Below, piece after piece: positions 4,676 through 10,823 of a stretch of DNA of 64,000 bases. Position 1 is the first letter of the stretch. Every line of letters begins with the position of its first letter. The stretch is from contig NZ_JAAOIR010000001.1 in assembly GCF_011440375.1 (NCBI RefSeq), forward strand, positions 1,612,001 to 1,676,000. The letters run 5' to 3'. Both the position numbers and the translations under genes were made by a program. This DNA comes from Halorubellus sp. JP-L1 (GTDB lineage Archaea; Halobacteriota; Halobacteria; Halobacteriales; Natrialbaceae). The notes under the pieces were generated by a model. The model did not search any database, was not told the origin of the DNA, and was given only the letters and a program-made list of their open reading frames with translations.

Positions 4676-5428
4676 ATGGACGACCCCGTCCTCCTCACCG
4701 GCGCCCGCGGGCACGTCGGCACCGCACTCCTGGACTACGCGGGCGAGGAGTACGACTGGCGGCTGCTCGACCGCGACCCGCCCGCCGACGCCGACGAGTA
4801 CCCCGGCGAGTTCGTCGTCGCGGACATCACCGACGAGGACGCCGTCCGCGACGCCGTCGCGGGCTGCGGCGCCGTCGTCCACCTCGCGGGCGACCCGCGT
4901 AAGACCGCGCCCTGGTCGAGCGTCCTCTCGAACAACGTCGACGGCACCCACACCGTCCTCCAGGCCGCCGTCGACGAGGGCGTCGAGAAGGTCGCGTTCG
5001 CCTCCTCGAACCACGCCGTCAAGCACTACGAGACCGAGCGCAAACCCGACCTCTACCGCGAGCACGACGACTTCCTGCTGGACGGCTCGGAACTCCCTCG
5101 CCCCGGGAACCTCTACGGCGTCTCGAAGGCCGCCGGCGAGACCCTCGGCCGCTACTACCACGACGAACACGACCTCAGCTTCGTCGCCGTCCGCATCGGG
5201 AACCTCACCGAGGAACACCCCCCGAAGGACTACGAGCGCGGCCAGGCGATGTGGCTCTCCTACCGCGACTGCGGGCACCTCTTCCAGCGCACCATCGAAG
5301 CCGACTACGACTACGAGATCGTGTACGGCATCAGCAACAACGACCGAAAGTACTACTCGCTCGAGAACGCAAAGGACGTCCTCGGCTACGAACCGCGGGA
5401 CAACTCCGCGGAGTACGCGGGCGAGTAG
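4676..5428 (+). CDS. azf: NAD-dependent sugar dehydrogenase/epimerase, probable Azf (glucose-6-phosphate dehydrogenase)
   Basis: An extended short-chain dehydrogenase of 250 residues. The Rossmann glycine motif LLTGARGHVG is at the N terminus, DIT follows the second strand, VVHLAG is the cofactor-binding turn, and the catalytic Tyr-x3-Lys occurs as LYGVSKAAGE. The C terminus (NDRKYYSLENAKDVLGYEPRD) is like the NAD-dependent glucose-6-phosphate dehydrogenase Azf of Haloferax. From memory, the Haloferax azf locus also lies near rpa2 and histone, as here. The last 28 bp, including the stop, recur at 7110-7137 beyond an A+T-rich insertion, so this 3' end looks like an integration target. A general NAD-dependent epimerase is the alternative. 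Confidence 0.75.
   Translation: MDDPVLLTGARGHVGTALLDYAGEEYDWRLLDRDPPADADEYPGEFVVADITDEDAVRDAVAGCGAVVHLAGDPRKTAPWSSVLSNNVDGTHTVLQAAVDEGVEKVAFASSNHAVKHYETERKPDLYREHDDFLLDGSELPRPGNLYGVSKAAGETLGRYYHDEHDLSFVAVRIGNLTEEHPPKDYERGQAMWLSYRDCGHLFQRTIEADYDYEIVYGISNNDRKYYSLENAKDVLGYEPRDNSAEYAGE
5401..5428. repeat. left copy of a 28-bp direct repeat (att-like)
   Basis: The sequence from caactccgcgg to the stop codon of the Azf-like gene matches 7110-7137 at 27 of 28 positions; the difference is g versus t at position 19. The pair brackets about 1.7 kb of A+T-rich DNA. This is the arrangement left by site-specific integration into the 3' end of a gene, which keeps the gene intact. Confidence 0.8.
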
Positions 5429-7109
5429 GGTGCTTTTCGAGCGCTTTTACCCCGTTGAGAAAAGTCGGATTTCTCTGCATCATCCCGCCCTGTTCTTGTA
5501 GTCATACAGGACGGTTAGGTAGGCCACTGAAATGCGTCAGTTCTCTTGTAAGTAAACCGCAAGAGGCCTAGTTTTTACGGTAGAACGCAAGACTGCAGAA
5601 GGAAAATTGGAACAAAGGCTATCTTTGTCTTTTTATCGTCTTCTTATGGGTTCCTAAGAGAATCAACCCTGAGACCCGGTTCGAAGTTCAGAACCCCCGA
5701 CCATCTTAAATAGAAGAGCAGAGCAGGCTCTGGGATTTGAACCTGTTCCTCTTTGTTAGAAACGAAGTCAAAGATATAGTCATCAACATCTTCATCTTGT
5801 TTTACCCATTTATTCATCCTTTTTAGGTGCTTAGTTACGTTCCCGCTCTGGGGAGGTTTGCCTGCACATCCGATCCTTATTTTCTTCTTTAGCTCATTCA
5901 AGCTATAGCTTGTGCTAGGTTCATTCGCTGCAATCCCCCGTAGTATGGCATCATATCTGGTCCCTTTTGTGCCGTCAACAAATTCAAATTTATCTTCACT
6001 TCTCCCATGTGTCCGACCGCTGATAAGACCGAATTCCGTGGAATAGTTTTCATTCAAAGAGCTTGCAGCATTTTTGAGGATTTTTATTGCATCTTGTTCG
6101 CTCCCATAGATGTCCACCTCATCCTCTTGTTTATAGTATATGTCATTTGATACGCAAAAATGGTAGCAGAACTTTTGCATCAGCTGAGGGGATTCGAGTG
6201 CTTCAAAAGCAAGGGTTTCCACAAAGTCGTCGTTGACCTCGATATTTAGCTTATCAAATCCCTTGTTTGCGATCTGGACAAGGTCGTCCTCCGACCACTG
6301 GCGAAGAGAAATCGTATCGACTCGTGAATTTAAATCGGAGTCGGCAGAAGTGAGTGCATCACCTCGATAGTCGATATATCCCACGCAAATTAACGCGTCT
6401 CTGTCTATTGCCTCCTTAATTTCTTCAGCAATATCCTTATGAATATCATCGGGTATTTTGTGAGCGTCGTCGATGAAAATCACAAACCGTTCCTCCTGAA
6501 AAAGCTCAAGAACAGTATCTATCCCTAGATTCTTTTCTTCGATTATAGTCTCAAACTCTACTTCTGTATCGTCTTTCTTATATTGCCCAGTTATTGCTTT
6601 GATACTTGCCGCCAGTTTTTTGCTAGTTGTTTTTCTCTCTCCTTCCTTTGTTTCTTTAGTGTATTTCGTGGGTTCGTCTAATTTATTCAGCACTATCTTC
6701 CACAAGTCGTCCTTTGACTCGACTTTGTTTCCCCTTACAGGAACATGATTTGATGGCACCCTCTCAACCTCTTCTACGACATACTTCACTAATGCTGACT
6801 TACCCGTTTTTGAGGGTCCAGAGATAGAAACTGCGGCTGTTTCTTTGAATAAGTAATCTGCTAGTTCCTCCTCTTTATGTCCTTCTCGCCTCCGGATATA
6901 GGTGTGTTCGGGATAGCCGGTTTCCCGAAATACCTTCCCAACCCTTAAGTCATTCATTCTGGAAAAAAGACATGGTGGCGTGTATTAAACGTTAGCCATT
7001 CGCAGATTCCTATATGGAGTCCATCAGCGGCAAAATTAATACGGGAAGTCAAGAAAGGTTAGTTCTTCATGTGGAATTCTTACTGCTCTGTGCCCTCTGA
7101 TGCGTGCGG
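5429..7109. mobile_element. A+T-rich mini-island between direct repeats
   Basis: About 1.68 kb of clearly lower G+C sequence separates the two copies of the 28-bp repeat. It holds the ATPase gene at 5644-6957 plus two short non-coding flanks (5429-5643 and 6958-7109) in which I see no gene. The sharp composition change at both repeats supports a discrete insertion. Confidence 0.7.
5644..6957 (-). CDS. STAND/AAA-like P-loop ATPase on an A+T-rich island
   Basis: A 437-residue ATPase of unknown function. Residues 1-30 (VFRETGYPEHTYIRRR) precede a Walker A motif at residues 47-54 (GPSKTGKS). A Walker B follows at residues 158-165 (FVIFIDDA), then a helical region containing LESPQLMQKFCYHF. The C-terminal ~110 residues look like a winged helix (YDAILRGIAANEPSTSYSLNELKKKI). 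Its G+C content is far below that of its neighbours and it is rich in Lys, Ile and Asn, unlike the acidic host proteome, so it was probably acquired recently. It is the only sizeable gene inside the 28-bp repeats; no integrase or transposase accompanies it. Orc1/Cdc6-like ATPases are an alternative, but no initiator-specific signature is seen. Confidence 0.85.
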   Translation of the reverse strand: MNDLRVGKVFRETGYPEHTYIRRREGHKEEELADYLFKETAAVSISGPSKTGKSALVKYVVEEVERVPSNHVPVRGNKVESKDDLWKIVLNKLDEPTKYTKETKEGERKTTSKKLAASIKAITGQYKKDDTEVEFETIIEEKNLGIDTVLELFQEERFVIFIDDAHKIPDDIHKDIAEEIKEAIDRDALICVGYIDYRGDALTSADSDLNSRVDTISLRQWSEDDLVQIANKGFDKLNIEVNDDFVETLAFEALESPQLMQKFCYHFCVSNDIYYKQEDEVDIYGSEQDAIKILKNAASSLNENYSTEFGLISGRTHGRSEDKFEFVDGTKGTRYDAILRGIAANEPSTSYSLNELKKKIRIGCAGKPPQSGNVTKHLKRMNKWVKQDEDVDDYIFDFVSNKEEQVQIPEPALLFYLRWSGVLNFEPGLRVDSLRNP

Positions 7110-7137
7110 CAACTCCGCGGAGTACGCTGGCGAGTAG
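7110..7137. repeat. right copy of the 28-bp direct repeat (att-like)
   Basis: This copy repeats the last codons and stop of the Azf-like gene (5401-5428) with one mismatch. It is not preceded by any coding sequence in that frame, so it looks like the remnant of the original gene end or an att scar at the far boundary of the island. Confidence 0.8.
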
Positions 7138-7179: not shown

Positions 7180-7749
7180 CTACGATTGCTCGTCGACGTC
7201 CGCACCGGCGGCGTTGCGCTGCACGCTCTCGATGCCGTTCCTCGCGCCGGCCTTCCGGTCGTAGCCTTCGCCGCTGTCCGCGATCACGTTCCCGTTGTCG
7301 TGACGGAGCCGCCACCGCCACTCGTTCGCGCGGTCGCGATAGATCTCGAACGTCGCCTTGCTTCCCGCGGGGACGGTCTCGGCGACCTCCTCGGTCGCCT
7401 CCCGCTCGCCCGCTGCGTCTGCGTCGTCTCCTCCCGCACCCGCGTCGTCTGGCGACTCCGCGTCCGCGTCTACGGCGTCGCTCCCGATGCCGCTCGCCGC
7501 GACGTCGGCGTCGGTGTCGACGTCGCCGTCGGCCGCCGGCCACGCGAACTCGACCTCGTAACTCGACTCGTCGCCCTCGCGCTCCACGTCGACCTCCATC
7601 TCGACCTCGCCCGGCGGCGTGACCGTCACCGAGTCGGCGACCGGAACGGCGTCGCCGCTGTCGAACGCGTTCGCCACGTTGTGCAGGTACGACGCGATCG
7701 CTTTCCGGGTCGCAGTCTGAGTGGTCTTGTAGAGGGGTTCATCCGACAT
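7180..7749 (-). CDS. amphi-Trp domain protein with C-terminal YegP/HVO_2922-type domain
   Basis: A 189-residue two-domain protein. The N-terminal part (YKTTQTATRKAIASYLHNVANAFDSG, then EVEMEVDVEREG) matches the amphi-Trp domain, a short haloarchaeal domain of unknown role. A long acidic Asp/Ala linker follows. The C-terminal ~55 residues (FEIYRDRANEWRWRLRHDNG...IADSGEGY) match the YegP/DUF1508 fold also seen in HVO_2922, often linked with stress-related small proteins. The start ATG is at 7749. Function unknown; probably cytoplasmic. Confidence 0.85.
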   Translation of the reverse strand: MSDEPLYKTTQTATRKAIASYLHNVANAFDSGDAVPVADSVTVTPPGEVEMEVDVEREGDESSYEVEFAWPAADGDVDTDADVAASGIGSDAVDADAESPDDAGAGGDDADAAGEREATEEVAETVPAGSKATFEIYRDRANEWRWRLRHDNGNVIADSGEGYDRKAGARNGIESVQRNAAGADVDEQS

Positions 7750-8302: not shown

Positions 8303-8346
8303 GCCAACAGGGCTGGTCGAGCCGACCGGCCCGGCTCGCTGGCGTC

Positions 8347-8488
8347 AGTCGAAGAGGCCGTCGACGTCGCTCGCACTGATAGTCACTCGAACAGGCCGTC
8401 GACGTCGCTCGCACTGATAGTCACTCGAACAGGCCGTCGACGTCGCTCGCACTGATAGTCACTCGAACAGGCCGTCGACGTCGCTCGC
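8347..8488. repeat. tandem 38-bp repeats built from a gene 3' end
   Basis: A degenerate 34-bp copy (8347-8380), two perfect 38-bp units (8381-8418 and 8419-8456) and a third partial unit from 8457 run directly into the DUF309 gene. Each unit carries the codons for the last residues (DVDGLFE) and the stop of that gene. Because 38 is not a multiple of three, the extra copies are not in one reading frame. No spacers are present, so this is not CRISPR. Confidence 0.9.
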
Positions 8489-9106
8489 GCGGTGGTCGCG
8501 GCGCTCGACGTGGTCGGCGAGGCGCTGGTAGACGATCGCGTAGTCGTCGTCGGCTGTCGCGAAGTCGACGAGGAACCGCTCCAGTTTCGCGGCCTCGTTC
8601 CGCGCGCTCGCGGCGCGGTCGTCGTCGGATTGGCGCTGGCGGTCCTCGCGAGCGTACGCGGCGGCGCGTTCGACGACGGACGCGTCGAGTCCGCGTTCCG
8701 CCGCGAGCGCTTCGGCGGCGAGCGCCGCGGCATCCGGCGCGAGTCGCTCGCGCGTCACGCGCTCGCCCTCGAACTCGAGGACGGGCATCGCGCGGCGTTC
8801 GACGACCTCGGGGTCGCTCGCGAGCGTCTCCAGCACGCGGCGGACGAGCGCGACGTCCACCCCACTGTAGTCGTCGGGGACGCCGTCGAGGTACTCGAGC
8901 GCGCTCTCGGCGAGCCCCACGCACCCCTCCCAGTTACGCCCGCGAGCGTGATGCACCGCCGCCGTCAACTGCACGAGCCCCTGGAGGAATCGACCGTCGG
9001 CGTCGTCGCGGTCGCTCTCCAGCCACGCCCCCTCCAGCGGGTCGTGGGCCGCGTGATAGAACCCGTCGTTGAACAACGCCAGCCCCGCACGAAGATTCGC
9101 TCGCAC
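8459..9106 (-). CDS. DUF309 domain protein
   Basis: A 215-residue DUF309 protein. The diagnostic N-terminal segment ALFNDGFYHAAHDPLEGAWL and the second motif FLQGLVQLTAAVHHARGRNWEG are both present. The family is small, all-helical and of unknown biochemical role. The start is a GTG at 9106, directly before RANLRAGLALFNDG; an in-frame ATG at 9328 would add 74 unrelated residues and overlap the divergent lipoprotein gene. The C-terminal codons are repeated downstream as a 38-bp tandem array. Confidence 0.8.
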   Translation of the reverse strand: MRANLRAGLALFNDGFYHAAHDPLEGAWLESDRDDADGRFLQGLVQLTAAVHHARGRNWEGCVGLAESALEYLDGVPDDYSGVDVALVRRVLETLASDPEVVERRAMPVLEFEGERVTRERLAPDAAALAAEALAAERGLDASVVERAAAYAREDRQRQSDDDRAASARNEAAKLERFLVDFATADDDYAIVYQRLADHVERRDHRASDVDGLFE

Positions 9107-9985: not shown

Positions 9986-10411
9986 ATGATGGACGTCACT
10001 GCGATACCGACCGTACCGCTACAGAGCGATGGCGCGGGGATAGTCATCCTCCTGGTGTACCTCGCGATCATCGTCGTTTCCATCGCCGGCATGTGGAAGA
10101 CGTTCGAGAAGGCAGGCCAGCCCGGCTGGGCCTCCATCATCCCGATCCTGAACATCTACTACATGCTCAAGATCGCGGACCGAGACGCCTGGTGGCTAAT
10201 CCTCTTTTTCATCCCGGTCATCAGCCTCATCCCCGCGATCATCGTCCCCATCGACATGGCGAAGAACTTCGGGAAGGGCACCGGATTCGGCCTCGGCCTC
10301 GCATTCCTCCCGTTCATCTTCTACCCGCTCCTCGGGTTCGGGGACGCGAACTACAACGGCCACGGGCCCGCCGGCGGCGCCGGCGCCGGCGCCAGCGGCA
10401 CCCAGTTCTAG
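9986..10411 (+). CDS. DUF5684-type membrane protein
   Basis: A 141-residue integral membrane protein with three or four hydrophobic segments (GIVILLVYLAIIVVSIAGM, WASIIPILNIYYML, WWLILFFIPVISLIPAIIV, GLAFLPFIFYPLLGFG). The motif FEKAGQPGWASIIPILNIYY is the hallmark of the DUF5684 family, which is widespread in archaea and bacteria with no known role. The start is at 9986 or the next methionine three bases later. It ends in a Gly/Ala-rich tail. Confidence 0.8.
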   Translation: MMDVTAIPTVPLQSDGAGIVILLVYLAIIVVSIAGMWKTFEKAGQPGWASIIPILNIYYMLKIADRDAWWLILFFIPVISLIPAIIVPIDMAKNFGKGTGFGLGLAFLPFIFYPLLGFGDANYNGHGPAGGAGAGASGTQF

Positions 10412-10750: not shown

Positions 10751-10823
10751 CGTCCGGACGGAGATTTGAACTCCGGTCCCTGGCTCCGCAAGCCAAGAGG
10801 ATAGTCCACTACCCTACCCGGAC
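10751..10823 (-). tRNA. tRNA-Arg (GCG)
   Basis: On the minus strand the sequence folds as a full cloverleaf of 73 nt. The acceptor stem is GUCCGGG with UCCGGAC, the D arm has GGGU/AUCC, and the anticodon stem is UUGGC/GCCAG with loop UUGCGGA, giving anticodon GCG (Arg, codon CGC). The T arm is CGGAG-UUCAAAU-CUCCG and the discriminator is G. There is no intron and CCA is not encoded. Copies of its 3' end lie just downstream, suggesting past use as an integration site. Confidence 0.93.

Follow-up and report, generated by a model that had tools for sequence, protein, structure and literature searches.

An integrase-less block behind azf in Halorubellus sp. JP-L1 as a probable member of a haloarchaeal family of integrative elements that use the azf 3′ end

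We analysed a stretch of 64,000 nucleotides from the genome of Halorubellus sp. JP-L1 (contig NZ_JAAOIR010000001.1, positions 1,612,001 to 1,676,000), hereafter referred to as the window, in which all coordinates are counted from its first letter. The azf gene for NAD-dependent glucose-6-phosphate dehydrogenase lies on the plus strand at 4679–5428 and was identified by a match to the NCBIfam equivalog model NF041293 (G6PDh_Azf) of 447.8 bits, with a cut-off of 400; its 3′ end is intact. Directly behind it, two direct repeats of 28 bp at 5401–5428 and 7110–7137, with the sequence CAACTCCGCGGAGTACGC[G/T]GGCGAGTAG, enclose a block of low G+C content. The two copies differ by one mismatch (27/28 identical), and the left copy ends exactly at the azf stop codon. 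By dinucleotide shuffles of the window, no chance matches of the repeat are expected, and a 26-base stretch of it had no third site in the 3.76-Mb genome when up to three mismatches were allowed. The 1,681 bp between the copies have a G+C content of 43.1%, as against 68.2% on the azf side, and hold one convincing gene in the list of open reading frames, a minus-strand P-loop ATPase of 437 amino acids at 5644–6957. An HVO_2922-type gene on the minus strand (7180–7749) starts 46 bp past the right copy. The nearest tRNA gene, at 10751, is not close to the block, and a search of the region against Rfam found no family near its gathering score. Further downstream, a 38-bp tandem repeat of about four units occupies 8344–8488, at the 3′ end of a DUF309-like gene. 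An earlier note on this DNA had described the repeat pair, its position at the stop of an Azf-like gene, the A+T-rich block with a single minus-strand ATPase and the lack of a recombinase in it; our analysis bore out all of these observations, including the last, as the list of open reading frames for the window contains no integrase-like entry.

The closest genome is that of the congener Halorubellus salinus (G013, loci L037 and L079; G numbers denote the genomes compared, L numbers their loci and f numbers host families), whose azf is 93% identical. There, the HVO_2922-type gene comes about 55 bp after azf, with no low-G+C block. It follows that the block in the window was inserted between azf and the gene that natively adjoins it. 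The earlier note had proposed a search of related haloarchaea for empty sites and for different cargo at the same place; H. salinus provides the former, and the latter is present in many genera.

The sequence that follows azf in the window is similar to that in Haloarchaeobius (G003) and in Halobacterium salinarum. A search with this left-end motif, which is 57 bp long and has a consensus of approximately TTTCGTAGTCATACACGGCGTGTCGGTGGGTCGTCGCCATCNGTCGGTTCACTCGTAGT, gave matches in 4 of 125 genomes of the family and then in 12 of 392 genomes of the order. Ten of the matches in the order lay shortly 3′ of the azf stop on the same strand, while the remainder were two 21-base matches. A profile built without the window matched the window at model positions 3–57 (E = 0.0011) and also matched G329. 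In total, the motif occurs in 12 genomes of five families (f1, f4, f5, f12 and f17), including G329 and the window, and starts 42–117 bp past the azf stop. The copy in the window (5494–5550, plus strand) is found at the expected distance and is identical to the consensus at 38 of 57 positions, the next best place in the 64 kb reaching 30; it is the most diverged of the 12. A possible hairpin around the first part of the motif (CCGCCCTGTTCTTGTAGTCATACAGGACGG, 5485–5514, plus strand) has arms in common with Haloarchaeobius G003, and the window copy folds with an unremarkable energy (z −0.26). At three other loci (L063, L084 and L101), low-G+C inserts of 0.7–4.5 kb lie directly 3′ of azf with neither the motif nor the repeat of the family, and these were not counted.

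In eight of the motif-bearing islands, the far boundary is formed by another copy of the azf 3′ end, 79–124 bp in length. This copy was found at 0.8 kb in G395 (96 bp), 1.1 kb in G067 (79 bp), 3.1 kb in G240 (80 bp), 3.2 kb in G297 (87 bp), 7.0 kb in G360 (116 bp), 11.2 kb in G329 (124 bp), 13.9 kb in G048 (87 bp) and 23.0 kb in G093 (98 bp, identical). Eroded copies were recognised in G184 and G003, and no right azf repeat was found in Halobacterium salinarum. In Haloarchaeobius iranensis, an insert of 0.42 kb has a 96-bp azf repeat and lacks the left motif. The better-preserved repeats extend from the codons ..NDRKYYS.. to the azf stop, and where the right junction is preserved, its start lies at or ahead of AAGTACTAC, the azf codons K-Y-Y. 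Judging from these junctions, crossover probably takes place near the K-Y-Y(-S) codons, with AAGTACTACTC, common to the preserved right junctions, as its probable core.

In the window, this core is present on the left side only (5348–5358, plus strand), and the right junction, which has lost it, keeps just the distal 28 bp. The right copy probably represents what is left of the distal part of the original azf 3′ end. Where the earlier note took the 28-bp repeat as the boundary of the element, the repeat pair itself held up, whereas its role as attachment core probably does not, given the 79–124 bp of the relatives. We set aside the 28 bp as crossover core because the longer repeats of the relatives share a different left part. 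CAACT, where the right repeat of the window begins, is also the point of azf at which the repeat in G003 is broken up by a second insert, and because of this shared position a different crossover point in a diverged subfamily, represented by the window element, is possible. The second insert in G003 (L041, about 918–1880 after azf) is likewise low in G+C, measures about 0.96 kb, encodes a membrane-like protein of 293 amino acids and interrupts the eroded azf repeat between GGA and CAACT. At three Halobacterium loci (L085, L097 and L254), copies of the azf 3′ end follow azf directly in tandem, hardly separated from one another, and the second copy is interrupted after GGCATC by a palindromic insert; these tandem ends are possibly scars of lost elements.

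In five islands, a tyrosine integrase gene begins beside the right repeat and is oriented towards azf; in G048 it is split by inserted DNA. A sixth integrase of this type, in G362, adjoins an azf fragment near a contig end. Across 387 genomes, these azf-type integrases are 68–74% identical to the G093 protein, and the next integrases reach at most 57%. An azf fragment adjoins all six azf-type integrases and none of 24 other integrase loci (6/6 versus 0/24). The five full-length proteins form a single clade (support 98/96) with hosts in families f1, f4 and f5. In the window genome, the best match is 43% identical, so no azf-type helper integrase is present there, and the matches in the other integrase-less carriers are likewise integrases of the general kind only. 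Integrases of the azf type (at least 60% identity) were not found on plasmids or phages, and no relative was confirmed in viral contigs; the left-end motif was likewise not found in plasmids, nor either end motif in viral contigs. Sister integrases in G264 and G294 (56–57%) are accompanied by repeats of 65–67 bp formed by the 3′ terminus of a different small protein gene (..FYDAENPLAWLQTDTALTLQEIA*), at 8725–8880 and 15492–15689 of L252 and at 10039 and 3354 of L253. The wider integrase clade may specialise in the 3′ ends of protein genes.

We then compared the right ends of the islands. In G048, G093, G360 and G329, GAACCGACNGA, an inverted copy of TCNGTCGGTTC in the left motif, lies close inside the right repeat on the integrase side. 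Four integrase-less islands (the first insert of G003, G184, G240 and G395) instead have GTATGACTTCACRC followed by the azf core, and this right end corresponds, in inverted orientation, to the AGTCATACA part of the left motif. The conserved right end of the integrase-less class can be written as GTATGACTTCACRCGAAAGTAC, and its hosts belong to families f1, f4, f5 and f17. With at most one mismatch, the pattern occurs five times in 387 genomes, each time in an azf island, and was never found in the reversed control. Matches with two mismatches in G254 and G115, on a contig other than that of azf or its listed place, were rejected as chance. Since deletions that arose independently would not produce one and the same right end in several families, a coherent class of non-autonomous cassettes seems to exist, and we infer that it is moved in trans. 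One right-end pattern lies inside the 7-kb island of G360 and a degraded one inside that of G329, as if a cassette had been stacked on an integrase-bearing element; these inner junctions are without a second left motif and azf tail. The right end GTATGACTTCACRCGAAAGTAC is absent from the window and from its genome.

The ATPase in the window matches the PADLOC candidate defence family PDC-S59 (E = 7.1e-25; residues 16–419, profile positions 16–402 of 428) and Pfam AAA_22. It resembles PDC-S59 in this whole-length match and in its single-gene organisation; relatives from Haloterrigena salina, a Clostridioides phage and bacterial plasmids are likewise encoded by stand-alone genes. The relatives found are, in contrast, only 22–29% identical, with Walker A, Walker B and a C-terminal DPxxLFYLRW-like motif retained, and the family is a defence candidate by name. 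The Selenomonas relative sits amid restriction-modification, toxin-antitoxin and Fic genes. No close relatives were found in the collections of genome contigs or viral contigs, and no relative was found in the PDB by sequence. Three other genomes of the host family have a relative of 26–39% identity, partly over short stretches, none of them directly at azf. On the strength of the family name, the ATPase probably serves in defence against viruses or plasmids.

Other islands carry different cargo. That of G048 encodes an SRA and nuclease-like protein, a thymidylate-synthase-like protein and an LmuB-like SMC ATPase, and close copies of the latter two are present in G093. The G360 island encodes an HsdR N-terminal domain and the G240 island HEAT repeats, while several further island proteins belong to no family. 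Judged from these similarities, defence is a likely theme of the cargo of azf islands. The LmuB-like SMC ATPase of G048 (L161, L165) and G093 (L162, L168) also has two small neighbours in common, with which it possibly forms a Lamassu-like defence unit, and each of the two islands has a serine-recombinase-like gene.

These results show that a family of elements exists at the azf 3′ end, that the window has its left motif and its place, that intact members have long azf 3′ repeats, that an integrase clade is linked to the autonomous members, and that the corresponding site in the congener is empty. We consider it highly probable that the window block is an integrase-less member of this haloarchaeal family of site-specific integrative elements, probably no longer mobile, and most likely an immobilised relic of such an element. 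An integrase supplied in trans, or since lost, would have crossed the element in at the azf codons ..KYYS.., whereby the element's own copy of the azf 3′ end would replace the native one and the old 3′ end would be pushed to the far side of the cargo. In archaeal integrative elements with tyrosine recombinases that use protein-coding genes, a copy borne by the element keeps the target gene intact, and azf would remain intact in the same way. Later, the right end would have lost its conserved arm and all but 28 bp of the repeat, which probably rendered the element immobile, while its single-gene ATPase may protect the host from viruses or plasmids. The suggestion in the earlier note, namely that a decayed or trans-mobilised unit had entered the 3′ end of a gene and restored that gene, was right in kind, with integrase-bearing relatives using the same azf 3′ end. 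Two observations sit less easily with this reading: the identity of 27/28 is high for a decayed, old right end, and the left motif of the window is the most diverged one beside a right end that has neither the right-end motif nor the crossover core.

As to its history, the window element may always have been without an integrase, that is, it may be a cassette of a coherent non-autonomous class, whose members have one or two cargo genes between two conserved ends and depend on a helper element for the azf-type integrase that mobilises them in trans. This account differs from the preferred one in history only, and we regard it as a serious possibility, if somewhat short of probable. It draws on the common right end of the four integrase-less islands beside the azf core, the restriction of that pattern to azf islands, the left motif that integrase-bearing relatives have too, and the small size and single cargo gene of the window element. 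Without the right end of the class, however, the window element cannot be placed in the cassette class by this test, and its genome now has no azf-type integrase. Alternatively, the element could be a deletion derivative of an integrase-bearing azf element, a relic, similar to a cis-mobilizable element (CIME), that has lost the integrase, the right arm and most of the repeat. The truncated right repeat with its missing core fits such a course, as does decay in relatives (the split integrase of G048 and the eroded repeats of G184 and G003), but no integrase remnant is seen in the window and the other integrase-less islands are not random deletions; we hold this origin to be plausible and give it tentative credence.

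The 57-bp motif could also be a structured RNA or regulatory element of azf that has nothing to do with mobility, the cargo having arrived by chance recombination. Its position behind azf on the same strand and the hairpin that its first part can form would suit this idea. The motif, however, occurs only here and there (10 of 392 genomes), is missing from H. salinus and from most azf loci, and goes together with low-G+C inserts and azf repeats; parts of it recur inverted at right ends, and none of the Rfam families scores up to its gathering threshold in this region. We therefore regard this explanation as very improbable. That the 28-bp direct repeat flanking the insert is a target-site duplication by a transposon or casposon is less credible still, as the block ends show no terminal inverted repeats when compared by eye, the block contains no transposase or Cas1 gene (an enzyme acting in trans would still be possible), and the relatives have a linked tyrosine integrase and repeats of variable length (79–124 bp) made of coding sequence up to the azf stop.

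Attachment sites within protein-coding genes are known in archaea, for example that of virus BJ1 in the HMG-CoA reductase gene (PMC8371274). Such elements combine a tyrosine integrase with an attachment site inside a gene, as does the azf family, which differs in its target, its dedicated integrase clade, its many carriers without an integrase and, in the window, its single cargo gene. CIMEs, and accretion at one site, have been described in bacteria for conjugative elements (PMC5704250). The azf islands resemble them in the loss of integration genes, the retention of attachment sites and the stacking with integrase-bearing elements. A CIME by definition keeps both attL and attR and has lost its integration and transfer genes. 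The window element has lost most of one attachment site (the left is kept, the right truncated, and there is no azf-type integrase), and the special right end shared by four integrase-less azf islands is not explained by random decay. Integron gene cassettes are small, mostly single-gene units, and the tyrosine recombinase that inserts them at their fixed site is encoded outside the cassette. The azf elements are similar in their small, mostly single-gene cargo, their fixed site and, for those without an integrase, a recombinase that would be encoded elsewhere, but their ends consist of the 57-bp left motif and a 22-bp right end, no attC or IntI was identified, and they insert into a gene 3′ end and form at most short stacks.

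We found no report of azf as an attachment site in the open-access (PMC) literature, which is no proof of novelty, and the family of elements at this site is apparently undescribed. What is new is the azf target, an integrase clade of its own and an integrase-less class with conserved ends. These constitute a defined system in which one housekeeping gene, one integrase clade and two conserved ends are combined with changing small cargo in five or more families of haloarchaea. Scanning this site in any genome of the haloarchaea would lead to small unknown, often defence-like genes. The integrase-less class also makes trans-mobilisation by an archaeal tyrosine integrase directly testable in Haloferax volcanii. 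More speculatively, and in our estimate rather unlikely, the azf 3′ end could be an integron-like archaeal landing site, where a clade of azf-specific tyrosine integrases would act in trans to insert small, mostly single-gene and often defence-like cassettes that have two conserved ends and can stack beside the integrase element, azf itself staying intact. If so, an integron-like cassette system would shuffle immunity genes among haloarchaea.
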